Position numbers and translations under genes: made by a program. Source: a virus. From it: a DNA stretch of 24,563 bases. Location: IMG/VR virus record IMGVR_UViG_3300025115_000054, positions 1 through 24,563 of that record; one strand, 5' to 3'. Positions 4,239-23,041 of the stretch are shown in pieces. The notes under the pieces were generated by a model. The model did no database searches, was not told where the DNA came from, and saw only the letters and a list, made by a program, of their open reading frames with translations. Position 1 is the stretch's first letter. Each line of letters begins with the position of its first letter.

Positions 4239-4456
4239 TATATTTGATTGTATGTTAATAGAGCTGTCTTAGCCCTATTTGTAATCGTTATCAGTAATCC
4301 ATTCTTATATACTTTGAATGAAGTCCTGACTTCTTCAGTGTACATTGGTTTTGGTCCAATAATAATCTTGGTTTCCATTACCAATTTAACCTGTCTGAAT
4401 GTATCGCTTGCGATTACATCCTTGACAGTATAGCCGTTTAATTCTTCAATAATCAT
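4238..4456 (-). CDS. Hypothetical protein (72 aa)
   Basis: An ATG at 4456 opens a 72-codon frame ending in TAA. The sequence alternates polar and beta-branched residues (VKLVMETKIIIGPKP, GLLITITNRAKTALLTYNQ), which suggests a small beta-rich domain. It starts 3 bases beyond the stop of the upstream leftward gene and runs into the membrane-protein gene, so the three are almost certainly co-transcribed. No family recognised. Confidence 0.65.
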   Translation of the reverse strand: MIIEELNGYTVKDVIASDTFRQVKLVMETKIIIGPKPMYTEEVRTSFKVYKNGLLITITNRAKTALLTYNQI

Positions 4457-5724: not shown

Positions 5725-5762
5725 ATGTAACAAAATTTTTAGTGGTACGTATATAGGTATAT
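5725..5762 (+). promoter_or_regulatory. Candidate phage promoter element, copy E1
   Basis: ATGTAAC at 5725-5731, 16 bases, CGTATA at 5748-5753, then N5 and ATAT ending at 5762. The same blocks at the same spacing occur at 6838 and 8128. It ends 22 bases before the start codon of the methyltransferase gene. Confidence 0.6.
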
Positions 5763-5784
5763 AAAACGCAAAGCCGCCAAACCA

Positions 5785-6237
5785 ATGAAAAACAGAAATT
5801 TAAACCATAGTGATAATTGGGCTACTCCAAAAGAATTTTACGACAAACTAAATGCTGAGTTTGCGTTTGACTTTGATCCTTGCCCTTTAAACGAGAATGG
5901 AATAACGCCTGATAAAGATGGCTTACTGATTGAATGGGGGCAAAGGAATTACATAAACCCCCCATACAGTAGAAACTTAAAAGAGGCGTTTGTAATGAAA
6001 GCCATTGAAGAAAGTAAAAAGGGCAAGTTGTGTGTAATGCTATTGCCTGTATCAACTTCAACAAAACTATTCCACGAGGCAATACAGCCAAACGCAAACG
6101 AGATCCGATTTGTAAAAGGTCGTATAAAATTCGTTGGAGTAAATACCAAAGGAGAATTAGTAAATAATAAAGCCCCAATGCACGATAGCATGATCGTTGT
6201 TTTCGGGTGCGGTGGCAAAAAAAATAATGTCGCCTAA
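5785..6237 (+). CDS. Phage DNA N6-adenine methyltransferase (Dam family)
   Basis: The 150-residue product has the short layout of the phage-type DNA N6-adenine methyltransferase family: a NWATP motif near the N-terminus (residues 11-15), FDPCP (30-34), the catalytic NPPY (58-61), a strand ending in CVMLLP, and a C-terminal strand IVVFG. NPPY is the N6-adenine signature. These enzymes transfer a methyl group from S-adenosylmethionine to adenine in DNA and typically protect phage DNA from host restriction. No restriction enzyme gene is adjacent, so it is solitary. The recognition site cannot be read from the sequence. It is the first rightward gene after the divergent region, so early expression is likely. 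Confidence 0.9.
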   Translation: MKNRNLNHSDNWATPKEFYDKLNAEFAFDFDPCPLNENGITPDKDGLLIEWGQRNYINPPYSRNLKEAFVMKAIEESKKGKLCVMLLPVSTSTKLFHEAIQPNANEIRFVKGRIKFVGVNTKGELVNNKAPMHDSMIVVFGCGGKKNNVA

Positions 6238-6262
6238 CTATCTTATAAAGTAATATTATGGT

Positions 6263-6457
6263 ATGGTAAAACCTGCAGAAGTATTATTATTTTATTTTCA
6301 GTTAAGGGACAAAGTGGAGTCTCTATATAAGGAATTAGAGGATGATACACTTAGACCTGATGTTAGGGTAAGGAAGCAGGATTATATAGATATGTACCTT
6401 TCAATGATGGAAGAGGCCAATTATGAATATTTTAAGAAATCTACACAGTTAAATTAG
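6263..6457 (+). CDS. Hypothetical protein (64 aa)
   Basis: An ATG at 6263 opens a 64-codon frame ending in TAG. The product is almost wholly helical and charged (FQLRDKVESLYKELEDD, DYIDMYLSMMEEANYEYFKK), so it may be a small helical bundle or a coiled-coil subunit. The next gene starts only 2 bases after its stop, indicating coupling. No family recognised. Confidence 0.7.
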   Translation: MVKPAEVLLFYFQLRDKVESLYKELEDDTLRPDVRVRKQDYIDMYLSMMEEANYEYFKKSTQLN

Positions 6458-6459
6458 GT

Positions 6460-6843
6460 ATGAAAGTTAATTATAGTGATATAAGGATATTGAATGATCT
6501 TACGGTAGTCAGAGTGATAGAACCTGAGTTTACTAAGGTAATGCGTAAGACTGTAGATAGGGACAACCCTAGGAATAAGGGTAAGGATCCTATAAAAGAT
6601 AATATGATTATGAAGGAGGTTGAGGAGAAGGTTACAAAAGATTTACAGGTAGCTGAGGTACTTAACATTGCTGCAGATAATAAATTTGGTATTAAGGTTG
6701 GTGATTTAGTAGTTGTTAACTTTAATAGGTTGAAGAAATTTGATATGTGGTCCGAAGGTACAGACACAGAGGATGTGGAATTTAATGTAGGAAAAGCTAT
6801 ATACGGGCTATCAAATTATGAGATTTTTGGCGTAAAAATGTAA
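6460..6843 (+). CDS. Hypothetical protein, possibly GroES-like fold (127 aa)
   Basis: The frame starts 2 bases past the previous stop. Features that recall GroES-type co-chaperonins are an N-terminal strand (RILNDLTVVRVIE), a central long insertion rich in Lys and Asp (about residues 25-60) where GroES has its mobile loop, then a beta strand after a glycine turn (KFGIKVGDLVVVNFN) and a final strand YEIFGVK. Many phages carry such proteins to redirect host GroEL to capsid folding. The similarity is by eye and weak; the long polar loop is also compatible with an unrelated beta protein. Its stop codon lies inside promoter element E2. Confidence 0.45.
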   Translation: MKVNYSDIRILNDLTVVRVIEPEFTKVMRKTVDRDNPRNKGKDPIKDNMIMKEVEEKVTKDLQVAEVLNIAADNKFGIKVGDLVVVNFNRLKKFDMWSEGTDTEDVEFNVGKAIYGLSNYEIFGVKM

Positions 6844-6875
6844 CCTTTTTTTAGGGGTTACGTATAAGTAAATAT
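6838..6875 (+). promoter_or_regulatory. Candidate phage promoter element, copy E2
   Basis: ATGTAAC at 6838-6844, 16 bases, CGTATA at 6861-6866, N5 and ATAT ending at 6875. It overlaps the stop codon of the upstream gene and faces a stretch with hairpins but no gene, so it may drive the candidate RNA at 6876-7050. Confidence 0.6.
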
Positions 6876-7050
6876 ATGCCCTAGGGGGATAAGCTGCCCT
6901 AGCAAGCCACGGGTAAAAGTTAAGCTCTTAAATGAGCACCTCAAACTTCAGTTCACAAGACTGTTGGTTCAGGCAAAATAGCTACAGTCAAAGGTGACTG
7001 GCTGCATAAAAGCGGTGTGATGGGATCATAAAATTACTCTAGGGTGGGAA
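6876..7050 (+). ncRNA. Candidate structured RNA downstream of element E2
   Basis: No gene is visible. Hairpins: CTAGGG (6881-6886) with CCCTAG (6897-6902); GCTC (6924-6927) with GAGC (6934-6937); CAGT (6949-6952) with ACTG (6960-6963); and AGC plus CAGTCA (6980-6990) with TGACTG plus GCT (6995-7003) over an AAGG loop. A second CTAGGG at 7039-7044 can also pair with 6897-6902, which would close the whole element and exclude the first hairpin. This is the form of a switch or an independent RNA. No known RNA family is recognised. Confidence 0.5.
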
Positions 7051-7079
7051 GTTAGGTTAAAAATATTAAATAATATGTT

Positions 7080-7217
7080 ATGAACAGACCAGACCCAAAA
7101 TCAGTTAACCCCTACAGTACTCAGTTACAAAGGCTGAGACTACGGGAGATCCGTAAAGTTAAGGAGAAGAATATAAAATTGTTAAGGTTGATTAAATATA
7201 GTATTAATGGTAGGTAA
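7080..7217 (+). CDS. Small basic protein (45 aa)
   Basis: An ATG at 7080 opens a 45-codon frame ending in TAA at 7215-7217. The product is strongly basic and mostly helical (LQRLRLREIRKVKEKNIKLL), so it may bind nucleic acid. It overlaps the first possible ATG of the next gene (7207) but ends just before the second (7222), suggesting translational coupling. It is short, so there is a real chance it is not a gene. Confidence 0.5.
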   Translation: MNRPDPKSVNPYSTQLQRLRLREIRKVKEKNIKLLRLIKYSINGR

Positions 7218-7647
7218 ATCAATGGATGAGAAAGAGCCAAAGAACAAATACTTATGTATTAAATGGTTAGAATGGTTTAAGGATTTTGTAGCAGCACATC
7301 ATGTCCTGACCATATCTAATGAAGTATTAGCAAATACCACTAGGGAGTTTGAGTATGACTTCTTAACAGTACAGGGTGATACTGGTGAAATGGGTTTTGA
7401 TTCAAGGTTTGTATTTAAGTTTAAAGGTAATGATAGGGTAGTCACTGTACCATTTGTACGAATTAGGTCTGCAGAGATAAGTACATTTTATGATACTGTA
7501 TTAAGCACATTAACTAGGTATATTATATATGGTAAGGAGTTTATGGGTGTAGCTAATATATTATGTGGTAATGCAGTTATTAATTGGCAGGCCCCAAAGG
7601 GGGAGCAGTATACATTAAAGGACTTAATTAAGCATGGAGACAAATAA
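7207..7647 (+). CDS. Hypothetical protein (146 aa, or 141 from the inner start)
   Basis: Frame of 146 codons from the ATG at 7207; the in-frame ATG at 7222 (MDEKEPKNK) follows the stop of the 45-aa gene by 4 bases and may be the true start. The product has a helical N-terminal part with Trp-rich LCIKWLEWFKDF and a beta-rich middle (FDSRFVFKFKGNDRVVTVPF). No recognised motif. It overlaps the next gene by 14 bases, and the two may encode partners. Confidence 0.7.
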   Translation: MVGKSMDEKEPKNKYLCIKWLEWFKDFVAAHHVLTISNEVLANTTREFEYDFLTVQGDTGEMGFDSRFVFKFKGNDRVVTVPFVRIRSAEISTFYDTVLSTLTRYIIYGKEFMGVANILCGNAVINWQAPKGEQYTLKDLIKHGDK

Positions 7648-8059
7648 TTATTATACACCTACTATTGAAGAGTTTCATGTTGGGTTTGAGTATGAACGAC
7701 TACTTCATGATATTTTTATAGGTTTAATTTGTGATACTAATGATATTGAAACAATAGAGGTATTACTAGGTGAAAACCCAGGGGAAATTAGGGTTAAATA
7801 TTTAGATAAAGTAGATTTTGCGGAGTTAGGGTTTATACATAAAGAAGATCAAGGTATGTCAGAGAATGGTGGGTTTATATATACTATACCAGATCCACAC
7901 TTTCAAAAAGCAGATATAATGGTTAGGTATTGGGTTAGTACTGGTTCTTATAGATTAAGAATAGATAGAATTAATGGTTGTATCTTTGATGGTACAATTA
8001 AAAATAAATCTGAATTGAAAAGGTTAATTAAACAATTAGGTATAGAACAAGTTCTGTAG
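7634..8059 (+). CDS. Hypothetical protein (141 aa)
   Basis: An ATG at 7634 inside the end of the previous gene opens a 141-codon frame ending in TAG. The product is acidic, with alternating strands (EIRVKYLDKVDFAELGFIH, KADIMVRYWVSTGSYRLRI) and a final helix KSELKRLIKQLG. No family recognised. An intrinsic terminator 24 bases downstream makes it the last gene of this rightward unit. Confidence 0.72.
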   Translation: METNNYYTPTIEEFHVGFEYERLLHDIFIGLICDTNDIETIEVLLGENPGEIRVKYLDKVDFAELGFIHKEDQGMSENGGFIYTIPDPHFQKADIMVRYWVSTGSYRLRIDRINGCIFDGTIKNKSELKRLIKQLGIEQVL

Positions 8060-8082
8060 GTTAGTAGTTGCTATGTGTTAGG

Positions 8083-8119
8083 CTAAGGTTGGTAGTATTA
8101 TTACTGACCTTAGTTTTTT
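8083..8119 (+). terminator. Intrinsic terminator of the first rightward operon
   Basis: CTAAGGT (8083-8089) pairs with ACCTTAG (8107-8113), with an inner AGTA/TACT extension, and six T follow (8114-8119). It separates the operon that starts at the methyltransferase gene from the next element, E3. Confidence 0.85.
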
Positions 8120-8127
8120 GTATATAT

Positions 8128-8165
8128 ATGTAACATTTTTTTGTTATCCCCGTATACCAGTATAT
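8128..8165 (+). promoter_or_regulatory. Candidate phage promoter element, copy E3
   Basis: ATGTAAC at 8128-8134, 16 bases, CGTATA at 8151-8156, N5 and ATAT ending at 8165. It lies just after a terminator and 19 bases before the next start codon, where a promoter is expected. It may drive the genes from 8185 into the virion module. Confidence 0.65.
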
Positions 8166-8184: not shown

Positions 8185-8376
8185 ATGGTAATATTAAAGC
8201 AACTATTAAAACGTAGGTTACATTGGGTAGATCTTGACAAAGATATATTTAATGAGGATGTAGTTAGGACAAAGGTATGGTTTGGTATATTTAAATTTGT
8301 GAACAGCGCAGATGTTAAACATACATTACCTGCAAATAAAGGTAAAAATAAAATAGGTTTTATAGATGGGGAGTAG
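8185..8376 (+). CDS. Hypothetical protein (63 aa)
   Basis: An ATG at 8185 opens a 63-codon frame ending in TAG. The protein is small and basic at the N-terminus (LKQLLKRRLHWVDLDK) with an aromatic middle (KVWFGIFKF). It is the first gene after candidate promoter E3, and the next gene overlaps its end by 11 bases. No family recognised. Confidence 0.65.
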   Translation: MVILKQLLKRRLHWVDLDKDIFNEDVVRTKVWFGIFKFVNSADVKHTLPANKGKNKIGFIDGE

Positions 8377-9073
8377 TTTAATCTTTGCTATAGACTTTGA
8401 CGGTACTATAGTTGATAATGAATATCCATTCATAGGGGCATTAAAACCTAATGCCAAGGATGTGATAAATAGTCTATATGAGTGTGGTCATTATGTGTTG
8501 ATTTGGACATGTAGGTCAGATGATGATTATAGTGATGGTACAATGCATGATGTTAAAGAGTTCCTAGATAAGAATGATGTATTATATCATGGTATAAATG
8601 TTAATGCTCCTATAGAGTTTGTTGGGTTTTCACCATACCCAAAGATTTGGGCCGATGTATATATTGATGATAGGCAACTTGGTGGTTTACCTAACGATTG
8701 GTTAGAGATATTAAATATGGTTAATAAAGAATTAAAAAATAGGCAAATGGAAGAAGTTACATTAATTTCTAAAACAGAAACAGTATATCCTATATTTGAA
8801 TATTGTACTATTATAGACAGGGATGGTTTTCTTGGCCTTGAGAAAGGTAGTAAGTTATATTTTGATATAGTAGATGAAGTATATAAATATTATCGTGATT
8901 TTGAATTAAAAGGTGATACCAGTGCATATGAAGAAGAGAATGCATTAGTATTGACAATTTCTGTTGTACATCAATTAGTGTCAGATGACATTATGGAGTA
9001 TGGTGGTAAATTAATATCAGATACTGAAATGTTACCTGAAGAGAAAGAACTTATGTTAAAAAATAGTAAATAA
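8366..9073 (+). CDS. HAD-superfamily hydrolase with C-terminal extension (235 aa)
   Basis: The N-terminal 105 residues carry haloacid-dehalogenase motifs: FAIDFDGT (Asp10 nucleophile, Asp12), IWTCRS (Thr48 as motif II), a possible motif III Lys93 and YIDDR (Asp101, Asp102 as motif IV). HAD enzymes mostly remove phosphate from nucleotides, sugars or proteins. A break near residue 120 is followed by about 110 residues of unrelated helical and acidic sequence (EEKELMLK at the end), possibly a second domain with its own function. The substrate is unknown; nucleotide or polynucleotide 3'-phosphate is common in phages. The ATG overlaps the previous gene. Confidence 0.8.
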   Translation: MGSSLIFAIDFDGTIVDNEYPFIGALKPNAKDVINSLYECGHYVLIWTCRSDDDYSDGTMHDVKEFLDKNDVLYHGINVNAPIEFVGFSPYPKIWADVYIDDRQLGGLPNDWLEILNMVNKELKNRQMEEVTLISKTETVYPIFEYCTIIDRDGFLGLEKGSKLYFDIVDEVYKYYRDFELKGDTSAYEEENALVLTISVVHQLVSDDIMEYGGKLISDTEMLPEEKELMLKNSK

Positions 9074-9074
9074 T

Positions 9075-9422
9075 ATGGAAGGAAAGGAAATTAAATCAGA
9101 AAGTATACCATTTGAATATGGTGATTTAACATTAATATGTTCATGTGGTCATACTAAGATTTTACACAGTAATGTACAACATGGTGTTAATTTTTATTTA
9201 TTCAATAATGATGAGAGTTATATTGAATTAGAATGTGATGAATGTAAAAGTAATTTATCATTGAAATTAAGACCAGCACTTGAACCTCCAATAAAAGATG
9301 CAATTATAGAACCTATAGGTGAGTGTGATACTCCTGATTGTGGTTGTATTGTTGAAGCTAATGATAAAGAAGAAAAAGAATATGTAGAAGATGAACTTTC
9401 GGAGAATAGTACAGAAGAATAA
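9075..9422 (+). CDS. Acidic Cys-rich protein, putative zinc ribbon (115 aa)
   Basis: An ATG one base past the previous stop opens a 115-codon frame. Cysteines come in pairs: CSC (22, 24), CDEC (54, 57) and a third group CDTPDCGC (84, 89, 91). The first two pairs fit a zinc ribbon with a 30-residue spacer. The last 25 residues are very acidic (NDKEEKEYVEDELSENS). Such a protein could contact RNA polymerase or DNA; no family is recognised. The next gene starts 32 bases before its stop in another frame. Confidence 0.7.
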   Translation: MEGKEIKSESIPFEYGDLTLICSCGHTKILHSNVQHGVNFYLFNNDESYIELECDECKSNLSLKLRPALEPPIKDAIIEPIGECDTPDCGCIVEANDKEEKEYVEDELSENSTEE

Positions 9423-9789
9423 AATATTCACGGAGTATGTTCGAATAATGAATGGGATTTTCGGTCTCTCCCCAAGGGAAGCCGAAGTCTATTCGTTACT
9501 ACTTAAAATAAACGATTCAGTTAATAATTCTGGGTTGAGTAAGTTTAAGATGAATATACTTAATACGGAGAATAGACGTATTATAATGCGTGAATGCAAT
9601 ATAACTAAAACTAATTTATCTAGACAGATAATTAAGTTTAAAGAGTTAGGTTTAGTTAGGTATGATGAGGCTACTAATATATATTATATACCTGATTATG
9701 TTGCACCTAAATTTGCTAGTGGGCATACTGTAGAGATAACTTTTACTTTAAGTACTGTATCAGATGAACAGACAGGATCTGATAATTAG
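9391..9789 (+). CDS. Winged-helix DNA-binding protein (132 aa)
   Basis: The core fits a winged helix-turn-helix: helix LSPREAEVYSLLLKI (27-40), helix around residues 60-68, recognition helix NITKTNLSRQIIKFKELG (70-87) and a wing with VRYDEATNIYYI (89-100). This layout is common in MarR-like regulators and phage replication or transcription switches. The start at 9391 overlaps the previous gene by 32 bases; an alternative ATG at 9448 would remove 19 residues but keep the domain. Being directly upstream of the packaging genes, it may regulate late transcription; this is inferred from position only. Confidence 0.7.
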   Translation: MNFRRIVQKNKIFTEYVRIMNGIFGLSPREAEVYSLLLKINDSVNNSGLSKFKMNILNTENRRIIMRECNITKTNLSRQIIKFKELGLVRYDEATNIYYIPDYVAPKFASGHTVEITFTLSTVSDEQTGSDN

Positions 9790-10150
9790 GCAGATATCTT
9801 TAAACCATATGATTAACGAAAGGGTGGTGAGACATATTGTATCACACCCAATTTTATTTGCTAAACAGCGTATGGCAGATCCTAATGATGATAGGCCAAT
9901 ACGCATTAAATATTTTGGGACATTTGTACAAAAGAAGATAGCAAATAAAGAGAATGTTAGGCGTTTGAACGAGGTATTAAAATTGGTTAGGTTAAACTCT
10001 ACTCATTATCTTAATGTATTTGATGGGTTATTTAATGACATGGATGAGATATTAAAACATATTCGTACAGCATTTAATACAAGGGATAAAGAAGAGTTTG
10101 ACGCAGTATATAATATTATAGTTAACAATAAATGTAAACATGGCGATTAA
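9764..10150 (+). CDS. Hypothetical protein (128 aa)
   Basis: An ATG at 9764 inside the end of the winged-helix gene opens a 128-codon frame ending in TAA. The N-terminal part contains HPILFAKQRMADPND and IRIKYFGTFVQKK; the rest is helical (ENVRRLNEVLKLV, DEILKHIRTAF). The IRIKYFGTF strand loosely recalls part of HU/IHF proteins, but no complete HU fold is present. It is last in its group before a 78-bp gap that holds a small hairpin (GTTGCCT with AGGTAAC, near 10187-10205). Confidence 0.72.
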   Translation: MNRQDLIIRQISLNHMINERVVRHIVSHPILFAKQRMADPNDDRPIRIKYFGTFVQKKIANKENVRRLNEVLKLVRLNSTHYLNVFDGLFNDMDEILKHIRTAFNTRDKEEFDAVYNIIVNNKCKHGD

Positions 10151-10228
10151 TTAAAGCTATTAATTAAGTCTTGTTTATTTGTAGTGGTTGCCTAAATAAG
10201 GTAACAAAATTAAAATGTTTAAGTTATA

Positions 10229-10801
10229 ATGAGAGTATTTGATATTTCAAATGGGGCTGTAACATTAGATCCGAGCAGATTAATTATACCGGAGTTTAAT
10301 GCATTATGGCGCAGAGATAAAAATAAAGACAAATTAAGGGCTACAAAAGAAATATCATATATTGTTTTTATGTACGATTTATCTGTAGATAATCCTTATA
10401 GGGGTTATTTAGAGATAGAAAGAGATCTAGTATTAAGGCGTGATTTCTTTCCTGATGGTAAATGGGAACCTGATGAATTAGTACAGAAAGCAATTAAGAA
10501 GTTTCGTGAACTAAGTGAAACAACTAATACTAGGTTATTAGCTAGTGCTAGGTCAGCAGCGGAAAAGCTTGCTACTTATTTTGAAGAGGTTGATTTCAAA
10601 CAATTAGATTCACAAGGTAAACCAGTATATTCTGCAAGGGAACTTGCATCTAACTTAGCAGCTGTAGGTAATATTGTTAAGTCATTAACATTCCTAGAGG
10701 AGCAAGTTAGGAAAGAATCCTTGGATAATACTGTGGCCAGAGGTGGTTCAGATATAGGTATGTATGAAATACCTAAGTTAGATTTTGATTATGGCATATA
10801 A
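10229..10801 (+). CDS. Candidate small terminase subunit (190 aa)
   Basis: The 190-residue product precedes and overlaps the large terminase gene, the normal place for the small subunit, which binds the packaging site and hands DNA to the motor. It is mostly helical, with two predicted long helices (LVQKAIKKFRELSETT; then LASNLAAVGNIVKSLTFLEEQVRK), as in oligomeric small terminases. A clear DNA-binding helix-turn-helix is not visible, so the call rests on position, size and helical content. The ATG follows an A/T-rich leader. The last bases overlap the ATG of the terminase gene (ATGGCATATAA), a sign of coupled translation. Confidence 0.55.
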   Translation: MRVFDISNGAVTLDPSRLIIPEFNALWRRDKNKDKLRATKEISYIVFMYDLSVDNPYRGYLEIERDLVLRRDFFPDGKWEPDELVQKAIKKFRELSETTNTRLLASARSAAEKLATYFEEVDFKQLDSQGKPVYSARELASNLAAVGNIVKSLTFLEEQVRKESLDNTVARGGSDIGMYEIPKLDFDYGI

Positions 10802-13800
10802 TCTAGAGATAAAATATACTGATAATTCAGACAAATTTAGGGAGCCGGCATTAACTTTCCAGAGGACAGGTAGATATACTAATGCCCCTCCTGGTACAAC
10901 AGAATATAGGCGATATTGGGATGAACAGTATCGTCGTTGTTTATTCGGTCATACTAGTGAGGATGGTGAATATATAACCGGTTATTTTTACTTTTACTTA
11001 AATTTTTGTCCTATTATTGTTACAAAGGTAGAGACTAAGAAAGATGGTAGTGGTAAAGAGAGGTCAGTTAGTACTAGGGTAAAAGACTTTCCTAGATTTT
11101 ATGATTATGACAGGGCGTATTTTGATGCTATAGAAGAAGCAGAAAATACAGGTAAACATCTAGTAGTTATTAAGAAAAGGGGTGCTGGTTACTCCTTTAA
11201 AGGTGGCTCTATGTTATGTCGTAATTTTTATTTAATACCAGACTCAAAGTCATATGCAATAGCTAGTGAAGCAGAGTTCTTAACCAAAGATGGTCTACTT
11301 ACTAAAGCTTGGGACTTTATGGATTTTATAGACCAACATACTGCTTGGTCTAAAAAACGTCAAAAGATAGATACTAGAATGCATAAGCGTGCATCTATTG
11401 TAATTGATAAAGATGGTGTTAAAACAGAGGTAGGTTATAAATCTGAGATTATAGGTATAACTCTTAAGAACGATGCTCAGAAAGCTAGGGGTAAAAGGGG
11501 TAAACTTATACTTTGGGAAGAAGCTGGTAAGTTTCCTGCCTTAAAGACAGCCTGGCAGATTGCTAGACCATCTGTTGAAGACTCAAACGTAGCATTTGGT
11601 TTAATGATCGCTTATGGTACTGGTGGTACTGAAGGAGTTGATTATGAAGGTCTAAAAGACCTATTTTATGAACCAGATGCATATAATTGTTTACCTATAG
11701 TAAACATTTGGGATGAAGAGAATTATGGCCAAGATGGTGGTTTCTTTGTTCCAGAATACTATAATATGACAGGTTCATATGATGGGGAACTAAAAGAATT
11801 TCATGGTTCACCATTTATGGATAGCCAAGGTAATTCAAATGTAAGACTTAGTAAAAGGTACTCTACTGAATTAAGGAAGAAAATATTTGATAGTGCTACT
11901 GATAAAAGTGCTGTAGATAGGTATATATGTGAACACCCATTTACACCTGCAGAAGCAACACTAAATATAAAAGGTAATATCTTCCCAAAAGCAGATTTAA
12001 TTAGGCATTTAGCAACTATACGTAACTCTACTAAATTGAAAGAATTTAAACAAGTAGGGGAATTGACATATGGTCCTGATAAACGTATAACCTGGCAGAT
12101 TAGTGATAAGTTAAAAGACCTTACTAAGTATAGATTAGAGAAAGGGGCAGATAAAAAAAGTGCTGTTGTTATATGGGAACATCCACCAGAAGATCCTCCT
12201 TATGGGTTATATATAGCTGGTTGTTTATTACCAGGAGAAAAAGTGTTAACAAACGAAGGATTGCTTAATGTAGAAGATGTTAATTATACTAATAGACTTG
12301 TTGATAAAGATGGTAATTTAGTTAATATTAAAGCATTACTTAGGTATGATAAAGAAAACGAAGACACTTATACTCTAAAAATGTCTAATACATACAGAAC
12401 AACTACTTTTACTAAAGAACATCCAATATATGTTTCAGATCATTCTTTAAATAAACAAAATATTATAAAGGAAAATTTATTTAATTTTGATTTTAAAAAA
12501 GTATCTGAAATTAAAATTGGAGATTGGGTTAAATATCCAAATACATATTTATGTAATGAATCTGATGAACACTATGCCCCAATATCAGAGTATTGGTGGT
12601 TTATAGGTTTATGGTTAGGTGATGGTTGGTGTTCTAAGAATAGGATATATGTGTGTTTTGATAAAACAAACATATCGCAAATTGAAAGATTAAAGAAATT
12701 TGTCAAAATGTTTTATCCTACTAATATTTCTATTAGAGAAAGAAATGGTTCAATTGAGTGTTCTTTTGTAGCTGATTATTTGAGAAAAGATTTACTTAAA
12801 TTTGGAAGATATGCTTCTGGTAAATTTATTCCAGAACATATTAAATATGAAGAAAACCTTATTAAACAAAATTTACTTTTAGGGTTTCTGGATTCTGATG
12901 GATGTGTATATAAAGATAAAAGAGGATATATATTTTTGGAATTTGTTAGTATGAATTTAAGGTTATTAGAAGATTTTCAAGATATTGCTTTTTCTTTAGG
13001 ATTAGTAGGAAATTTATCAAAATTAAGAGAAGAAGGAGATTATAACATAGAGGGTAGAATTGGTAAACAACACGAAGCCTATCATCTAAGATTTGGTCAT
13101 ACAGATTCTATTAAATTTGCTAATATGTGTAATTTTGATATAAGAAGTAAATTATCAAAAATAGATAGAAATAATATAAAACAAACTAGAAATAGACCAA
13201 AAGCAGGATGTTTTTTGAGTGAAGATAATAGATATATATATTTCCAAATAAAGAATATTATAAAAGGAAATTATACTGGAATTGTATTTAACTTTGAAAC
13301 GGAGACTCATAGTTTTTGTACACACCATATTTCTACACATAACTGTGACCCATATGATCATGATGAGTCAGGGACAAATTCTTTGGGGTCAGTTATTATA
13401 TATAAACGATTCCAGAATTTTGAATCTTATTATGATTTACCAGTAGCAGAGTATACAGGTAGGCCTGAATCAGCAGAAGAGTTTTATGAAATAGTTAGGC
13501 GGTTAGTTAAATATTATAATGCCAAATTACTTTATGAAAATGAGAAAAAAGGATTATATGTATACTTTTCACATAAAAATGAAGAGTATTTATTAGCAGA
13601 TCAACCAGATGTTATTAATGATATTCTTCAAAATAAGACTACTGTTAATAGACGAAAAGGAATACATATGAATAAAGAAATCAAATTATGGGGGGAAAGA
13701 TTAATCAAAGATTGGCTAAACGAAGAATATGCCCCAGGTCAGAAAAACCTACATAAAATATTTTCAGAACCATTATTAGAGGAACTTATCTCATATAGTA

Positions 13801-13961
13801 TGGATGGTAACTTTGATAGGGTTATGGCATTAATGATGGTCATGATATATAAACAAGAATTATATCATGTACAAGTTACAAAGAAAAAAGACTATGATAA
13901 ATCCAGGGCATTGTTTGCCGAACCTTTGTTCAAGGATTTAGATGGAATTGGTTGGATTTAA
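10791..13961 (+). CDS. terL: Terminase large subunit containing an intein
   Basis: The ATP-driven DNA-packaging motor and nuclease. Counting from the ATG at 10791 (a TTG six bases earlier is also in frame), residues about 126-138 (KRGAGYSFKGGS) form the deviant Walker A and LILWEEAG at 239-246 the Walker B with the catalytic Glu. After the intein, the nuclease domain shows CDPYDHDESGTNS, with the first acidic residue at the splice junction, then LLYENEKKG and a late acidic motif in YSMDGNFDRVMALMM. Residues 478-851 are the intein. Without it the protein is 682 residues, normal for a large terminase. Extein Arg codons favour AGG and CGT, unlike the intein. Strong call; the portal gene follows 12 bases later. 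Confidence 0.93.
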   Translation: MAYNLEIKYTDNSDKFREPALTFQRTGRYTNAPPGTTEYRRYWDEQYRRCLFGHTSEDGEYITGYFYFYLNFCPIIVTKVETKKDGSGKERSVSTRVKDFPRFYDYDRAYFDAIEEAENTGKHLVVIKKRGAGYSFKGGSMLCRNFYLIPDSKSYAIASEAEFLTKDGLLTKAWDFMDFIDQHTAWSKKRQKIDTRMHKRASIVIDKDGVKTEVGYKSEIIGITLKNDAQKARGKRGKLILWEEAGKFPALKTAWQIARPSVEDSNVAFGLMIAYGTGGTEGVDYEGLKDLFYEPDAYNCLPIVNIWDEENYGQDGGFFVPEYYNMTGSYDGELKEFHGSPFMDSQGNSNVRLSKRYSTELRKKIFDSATDKSAVDRYICEHPFTPAEATLNIKGNIFPKADLIRHLATIRNSTKLKEFKQVGELTYGPDKRITWQISDKLKDLTKYRLEKGADKKSAVVIWEHPPEDPPYGLYIAGCLLPGEKVLTNEGLLNVEDVNYTNRLVDKDGNLVNIKALLRYDKENEDTYTLKMSNTYRTTTFTKEHPIYVSDHSLNKQNIIKENLFNFDFKKVSEIKIGDWVKYPNTYLCNESDEHYAPISEYWWFIGLWLGDGWCSKNRIYVCFDKTNISQIERLKKFVKMFYPTNISIRERNGSIECSFVADYLRKDLLKFGRYASGKFIPEHIKYEENLIKQNLLLGFLDSDGCVYKDKRGYIFLEFVSMNLRLLEDFQDIAFSLGLVGNLSKLREEGDYNIEGRIGKQHEAYHLRFGHTDSIKFANMCNFDIRSKLSKIDRNNIKQTRNRPKAGCFLSEDNRYIYFQIKNIIKGNYTGIVFNFETETHSFCTHHISTHNCDPYDHDESGTNSLGSVIIYKRFQNFESYYDLPVAEYTGRPESAEEFYEIVRRLVKYYNAKLLYENEKKGLYVYFSHKNEEYLLADQPDVINDILQNKTTVNRRKGIHMNKEIKLWGERLIKDWLNEEYAPGQKNLHKIFSEPLLEELISYSMDGNFDRVMALMMVMIYKQELYHVQVTKKKDYDKSRALFAEPLFKDLDGIGWI
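12222..13343 (+). mobile_element. LAGLIDADG homing-endonuclease intein inside terL
   Basis: The 374-residue insertion starts with Cys (CLLPGEKVLTNEGLLNVEDV), ends HN, and is followed by Cys at the +1 extein position, the standard self-splicing residues. A block-B-like motif (KEHPIYV) and final ISTHN support splicing. Two dodecapeptides, GLWLGDGWC (near intein residue 128) and LGFLDSDGC (near 221), identify a LAGLIDADG homing endonuclease. Arg codons are nearly all AGA and Gly codons shift towards GGA compared with the exteins, suggesting recent arrival. The site is the conserved strand before the first nuclease aspartate, a place where an inexact loss would be lethal to the phage. Confidence 0.95.
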
Positions 13962-22321: not shown

Positions 22322-23041
22322 ATGGAACCAAGGATAATAGGAGAAAGTACCGTTGGTGTAAACAACGAGGACCTTGAGAAAGCGATAGAAAGAGTTGAGA
22401 GATCTAAAATGTATAGAGATTTATCAACAATCATAATCTGTCCAACTAGGGGAATGTTCCCGACAAGAGTAGTCCAATCGTGGATGAAACTGTTAAGACC
22501 AATGAATCAGTTAGTAGCAGGACCAATCTTTGCAGAAGGCATAGAAGTTGGTGAAGCTTATAATAAACTTATAGAATATATACTTAAAAATGATTTTCTA
22601 AATAAATTTAAGTATGTACTTACCATAGAAGAAGATAATATGCCACCAGCAGATGGTTTAATCAAGCTATATGAAAGTATAGATGAGTATGATGCAGTAG
22701 GTGGTTTATATTGGGGAAAAGGTGATAATGGGTTTCCAATGATATTTGGGGATCCAGAAAAAGGTATATATGACTCAACCCCACAAAAACCAATACCAGG
22801 TAAAGTTCAGAGATGCTGTGCATTAGGTATGGGGTTTACTTTGTTTAAACTTGATATGTTTAAAAACATAGAAGGTGAATTATTTAAAACAAAACAGAGT
22901 AGCGATCCATTAGAAGGAGAATATAATATGACACAAGATTTCTTTTTCTTTAGAAAAGCAGCAGAACATGGTTATAAATTTGCCTGTGACAATAGAGTAT
23001 TAGTAGGTCATTATGACAGTAAACAAGATAAAGTATGGTAA
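22322..23041 (+). CDS. Putative glycosyltransferase, GT-A type (239 aa)
   Basis: The N-terminal TIIICPTRGMFP and following helix look like the nucleotide-sugar-binding start of a GT-A fold. YVLTIEEDNMPPADGLIKL holds an acidic EEDN cluster where DxD-type enzymes bind metal and sugar nucleotide; then AVGGLYWGK, RCCALGMGFTLFKLD and the terminal NMTQDFFFFRKAAEHG (acceptor-side acid) and VGHYD (late His) follow the usual order. The substrate is unknown. It follows a terminator and overlaps the methyltransferase gene by 7 bases, so the two are translated together. It may modify virion proteins, phage DNA or host glycans. Confidence 0.75.
   Translation: MEPRIIGESTVGVNNEDLEKAIERVERSKMYRDLSTIIICPTRGMFPTRVVQSWMKLLRPMNQLVAGPIFAEGIEVGEAYNKLIEYILKNDFLNKFKYVLTIEEDNMPPADGLIKLYESIDEYDAVGGLYWGKGDNGFPMIFGDPEKGIYDSTPQKPIPGKVQRCCALGMGFTLFKLDMFKNIEGELFKTKQSSDPLEGEYNMTQDFFFFRKAAEHGYKFACDNRVLVGHYDSKQDKVW

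Follow-up and report, generated by a model that had tools for sequence, protein, structure and literature searches.

Three times on the same strand, the viral DNA analysed here (24,563 nucleotides, the window) carries a short element with fixed internal spacing, which raises the question of what this element is and which polymerase would read it. The record IMGVR_UViG_3300025115_000054 comprises the window only, and the left arm of the phage is incomplete in it. The phage belongs to the Crassvirales, near Suoliviridae: its terminase, portal and major head protein are those of the group, lie in the expected order and match head-and-packaging families. Its portal is about 45-51% identical to that of Suoliviridae, the best named relatives, and 55-62% identical to that of nearer uncultured contigs, and comparison of the window with named phages by megablast and blastn gave no match, or a match of the methylase gene only. 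Genes lie on the minus strand to the left of about 5.6 kb and on the plus strand to the right of it. The right arm holds the terminase, the portal, the capsid and giant late proteins, and the three copies of the element (P1, P2 and P3) head its successive units.

Three copies of one element in the window

The exact pattern ATGTAAC-N16-CGTATA is found at 5725, 6838 and 8128, always on the plus strand, and no other exact copy exists on either strand of the 24,563 bases. The three copies had been reported by an earlier sequence-only reading and are exact; the chance level is a mean of 0.01 copies, and three or more were obtained in none of 100 dinucleotide shuffles. A weight-matrix scan of the window with spacers of 15-17 recovered the same three copies only, and the pattern with three mismatches is at chance level (15 found, 11.1 expected). 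The layout given by that reading needs one correction, because a third block, (T/A)ATAT, follows CGTATA after 4 bases instead of 5 (TAGG-TATAT in P1, AGTA-AATAT in P2 and CCAG-TATAT in P3), whereas the total length of 38 bp stands. A T-tract follows TGTAAC. The features concerned are the following:

5725-5762, plus strand: P1; putative -35 box TGTAAC at 5726-5731, 16-base spacer, putative -10 box CGTATA at 5748-5753; in the divergent intergenic region
5785-6237, plus strand: Dam-type methylase gene, 22 nt after P1
6838-6875, plus strand: P2; putative -35 box TGTAAC at 6839-6844, CTTTTTTT, 16-base spacer, putative -10 box CGTATA at 6861-6866; structured RNA downstream
8083-8119, plus strand: intrinsic-terminator-like hairpin, CTAAGGT at 8083-8089 and ACCTTAG at 8107-8113, then six T; just 5' of P3
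8128-8165, plus strand: P3; putative -35 box TGTAAC at 8129-8134, ATTTTTTT, 16-base spacer, putative -10 box CGTATA at 8151-8156; 19 nt before the open frame at 8185
8185-13961, plus strand: gene run after P3, extending to the large terminase at 10785-13961

As the sequence-only reading had it, two copies end shortly before a start codon (P1 and P3, 22 and 19 nt 5' of the ATGs at 5785 and 8185), and one, P3, directly follows a terminator-like hairpin. P3 heads the series of genes that extends up to the terminase. No open frame lies close behind P2; a structured non-coding RNA is found there instead. A promoter based on a hairpin was also considered and rejected, as short stems across the spacer can be drawn in the second and third copies and are impossible in the first.

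Other features of the window deserve a mention. The large terminase gene is split by a LAGLIDADG-type insert, probably an intein (1058 aa, compared with 675 aa for the homolog in L177). The left arm carries, on the minus strand, a tRNA-Leu (taa) at 1351-1435, cr4_1 likewise having a tRNA-Leu near the arm junction, and a protein with a NYN domain, a predicted nuclease, at 485-1123.

A probable promoter of ECF type in phages and hosts

In all copies the -35 box contains GTAAC (as TGTAAC), the spacer has 16 bp and the -10 box starts with CG, which are features of ECF promoters. The published consensus of the ECF16 group is tGTAACc-N16-CGAA, and the EcfF promoter, whose transcription start has been mapped, reads GTAAC-N14-15-CG(t/a) (PMC3420878). 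Promoters of this group (Caulobacter SigF type, Bradyrhizobium EcfF) have in common with the element the -35 tGTAACc, the 16-bp spacer and a -10 beginning with CG; however, the -10 is CGTATA here and CGAA there, which sets the element outside ECF16 (PMC3420878), and its carriers are phages and Bacteroidota, not Proteobacteria; the likeness is one of promoter sequence. On the other hand, the primary promoter of Bacteroidota, the presumed host phylum, is read by sigma ABfr and has TTTG at -33 and TAnnTTTG at -7 (PMC7366714), whereas the element has TGTAAC and CGTATA; the sequence-only reading was right to set the two apart. We hold with good confidence that the element is an ECF-sigma-type promoter, which would be read by bacterial core RNA polymerase with an ECF-type sigma.

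The element is also found well beyond the window. A scan of 2.9 million viral contigs with an extended form of it gave at least 46 stretches, an undercount given the extra bases required. For some of these stretches the full records were examined: the 55-kb contig G008 contains 36 copies of TGTAAC-N16-CGTATA, the 128-kb contig G012 contains 24, and jumbo-phage contigs of 203-372 kb contain 6-25 each, whereas the reversed control pattern does not occur in them. G007 and G009-G012 are T4-like, with a gp23 capsid gene; G008 gave no terminase or gp23 match and could not be placed in a group. In G008, 32 of the 36 copies lie 5-45 bp before the start of an open reading frame, against 3.3 expected. 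Since crAss-like and T4-like contigs both carry the element, the same signal would serve at least two unrelated phage groups. From kinship, the hosts of these uncultured phages are presumed to be Bacteroidota.

A profile search with the portal gave 80 related loci. Among 50 whole crAss-like records, 11 contain the exact element (the reversed control, 0), with 1-5 exact copies per element-bearing relative. As in the window, these usually lie 5' of the genes for terminase, portal and capsid, mostly 3-8 kb upstream of the portal and pointing towards it. The weight matrix gave 1-8 candidate sites in each of these relatives, most of them where the right arm begins. Homologs of the window genes at 9075, 9391, 9764 and 10229 are arranged in the same order in relatives, where the element is upstream too, and an additional copy in G013 is ahead of homologs of the window genes at 22322 and 23035. 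The enrichment before genes for which the sequence-only reading had suggested a test in related phages is present, 15 of the 21 exact crAss-like copies preceding an open reading frame (0.89 expected). Here as in G008, the element is just 5' of genes and co-oriented with them, as in ECF promoters. Judged from sequence and placement, it is a promoter class rather than a local repeat, and its role as a promoter for a gene set, the right arm leading into terminase, portal and capsid, is strongly supported.

Fixed spacing and conserved boxes are also compatible with the binding site of some other DNA-binding protein, such as an operator. Nevertheless, the element is directional: all the copies of G008 are on one strand, reversed copies and copies with a spacer of 15 or 17 are absent, and nearly all are 14-36 bp before a start codon. 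Besides, TGTAAC and CGTATA show no dyad symmetry with each other, and the two boxes match an ECF -35/-10 pair. A protein-binding site that is not a promoter is very unlikely.

Sites of the same type exist in the bacteria themselves. Exact ATGTAAC-N16-CGTATA is found upstream of rpoD, the gene of the primary sigma factor, in six Bacteroidota records. Same-type sites lie within 250 bp upstream of rpoD in 12 of 29 Bacteroidia, whereas the remainder of these loci predicts about 0.17; the 29 rpoD genes (L298-L326) are the best-scoring copies and their genomes, drawn without regard to the element, are related, so that the 12 are not independent events. These sites have the form (T/C)G(T/A)AAC-N15-17-CGT, in which TTT often follows AAC, and occur once per genome, whereas the phages carry a repeated set. 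The strict element is rare in hosts, where a search of 198 Bacteroidia genomes gave 15 matches and the reversed control gave 4, and no large host regulon with exactly this sequence is therefore seen. No published description of an ECF-type site upstream of rpoD was found in the open-access literature. These sites suggest that an ECF sigma controls rpoD in many Bacteroidia.

The crAss-like group encodes its own RNA polymerase, and the sequence-only reading had proposed that this enzyme reads the element as a promoter of a gene set. The second part of the proposal is strongly supported by repetition, placement before starts and a position kept in relatives; the first part is not supported. A promoter of the single-chain phage polymerase would agree with the presence of the element in a crAss-like phage, at the head of an arm with terminase, portal, capsid and giant late proteins, and with its mismatch to the primary promoter of Bacteroidota. 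However, such a promoter should be common to crAss-like phages with the polymerase, and the element is absent from the named phages tested that are crAss-like or of this portal family (among them phi14:2, whose virion polymerase is characterised, DAC15, crAss002, PhiCrAssBcn3 and the prototype crAssphage) and from gut Suoliviridae, while it is abundant in T4-like jumbo phages and precedes rpoD in hosts. In phi14:2, of the same order Crassvirales, the polymerase is carried in the virion and serves the early genes (PMC7886860), whereas the element heads the structural arm. The ECF architecture and the site before rpoD argue against a phage RNA polymerase and favour the core polymerase of the host together with an ECF-type sigma; the phage enzyme is a very unlikely reader. 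A substitute motif was sought in the gut Suoliviridae by a dyad search, but nothing stood out clearly from the reversed control.

Left-arm genes of the window are preceded by another repeated motif, TGTCTAAC(C/T)AAATA, at 5613-5600, 5013-5000 and 4741-4728 on the minus strand (three exact copies, 0 expected), each 23-27 nt upstream of an ATG. It is a candidate early-class promoter or leader, and may be what the virion polymerase actually recognises.

The sigma factor

If the element is an ECF promoter, its sigma could be encoded by the phage or by the host. Most element-rich phages encode an ECF sigma: both ECF sigma domains are found in proteins of six element-bearing records that are not crAss-like (G006, G007, G009-G012), several of the genes being beside element clusters. 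The principle of a dedicated sigma class that redirects host polymerase to phage genes would be shared with the gp55 late promoters of T4, which have no -35 box. The jumbo phages with the element encode ECF sigmas, whereas the crAss-like carriers have no recognisable sigma.

In the crAss-like group the distribution is inverted. ECF-like sigma genes are kept in gut Suoliviridae (G041, G046, G050, G053, G054, G056, NC_055900 and NC_055893), in the left arm where annotated, and those examined have no element, even with a relaxed matrix. Neither the window fragment nor the crAss-like genomes with the element gave an ECF sigma; as the left arm of the window is incomplete, absence there says little, but G013 and G036 are complete, as judged by 127-bp terminal repeats, and show nothing above chance with all filters off. 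A phage sigma too diverged to be recognised would fit the sigma genes of the six other records and of the gut Suoliviridae, but not the null result in the two complete genomes, nor the crAss-like phages that have a sigma and no element; it is an unlikely explanation, though one of some weight. Since element and sigma gene are thus found apart, a host ECF sigma is moderately favoured over an unrecognised phage sigma for the clade of the window.

With a host ECF sigma as the most likely reader, the system would work as follows. The sigma would recognise -35 TGTAAC with its T-tract and, after the 16-bp spacer, -10 CGTATA, and transcription would start some 6-10 nt further. In the right arm, P1 to P3 would each drive one of three adjoining transcription units: the methylase operon, the structured non-coding RNA with the small genes behind it, and the run leading into terminase, portal and capsid. 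Initiation at the element, the cognate sigma and a timing that is middle or late and not early are what we infer from the DNA.

A structured RNA behind P2

P2 is followed by about 200 bases without a gene, and a structured stretch behind the element is common to seven distinct crAss-like phages. The features are these:

6873-7062, plus strand: predicted non-coding RNA, its ends placed from the position of the promoter and the sequence common to relatives
6940-7027, plus strand: conserved core, made up of three hairpins in a row; the linkers are CAACTT, TTGGATCAGGC and CTAC
7081-7218, plus strand: small putative open frame of 45 aa behind the RNA

A covariance model built from four sequences recovered the other three with E values of 2.7e-6 to 1.5e-4 in 1.0 Mb searched. 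In the seven sequences, 91% of the pair cells are standard and compensatory changes are seen in 11 of 15 pairs; covariation scores 0.80, whereas shuffles give 0.26 (sd 0.06) and slid helices 0.07-0.14. The alignment was fitted to the structure, which favours it over slid versions, and the independent hits of the model therefore weigh most. L253 (E 0.51) was considered a chance match and excluded from the pair counts; the hit to it by R2, a model that had included it, is circular and was disregarded. Folding of the single sequence gives a z of only -1.25, and the case for a structure comes from covariation. The distance from the element to the RNA is 103-175 nt in every copy found by sequence; in L198 the RNA is behind the element at 4398. 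A scan for the RNA core that ignored the element returned, among the matches listed, only known members and chance matches.

No Rfam family matches the RNA, either in the window or in the four relatives searched; none exceeds its gathering threshold, and allowing E values up to 1 changes nothing. ARAGORN found neither tmRNA nor tRNA there. The strong covariation indicates a structured RNA that is new to Rfam. In three phages, sequence like AGGTTAAAATA carries on beyond its 3' side in the direction of the following gene, and for this reason a leader or regulatory RNA is likeliest; it may instead be a trans-acting small RNA or a packaging RNA. A second, putatively structured RNA, unlike the first, is found behind an ECF-type element in G013, G022 and G036 (L176:10258-10560, L292:15792-15500 on the minus strand and L282:417-760), with visible compensatory stems (for example AACATAG/CTATGTT and TTTAG/CTAAA).

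The most far-reaching reading is a tentative one: two unrelated groups of uncultured phages, crAss-like and T4-like jumbo phages, would have adopted the kind of promoter that belongs to an undescribed ECF regulon in their Bacteroidota hosts and that also precedes rpoD, and the crAss-like members would use the host ECF sigma for the structural arm and a new RNA family. No published promoter map of crAss-like phages was found in the open-access literature. With a defined promoter sequence and a predicted sigma class, the late switch that follows the virion polymerase in these phages becomes testable. Besides, the element provides a sequence handle on the ECF site before rpoD in Bacteroidota, and the structured RNA gives this abundant group of viruses a new element that is concrete and open to experiment.
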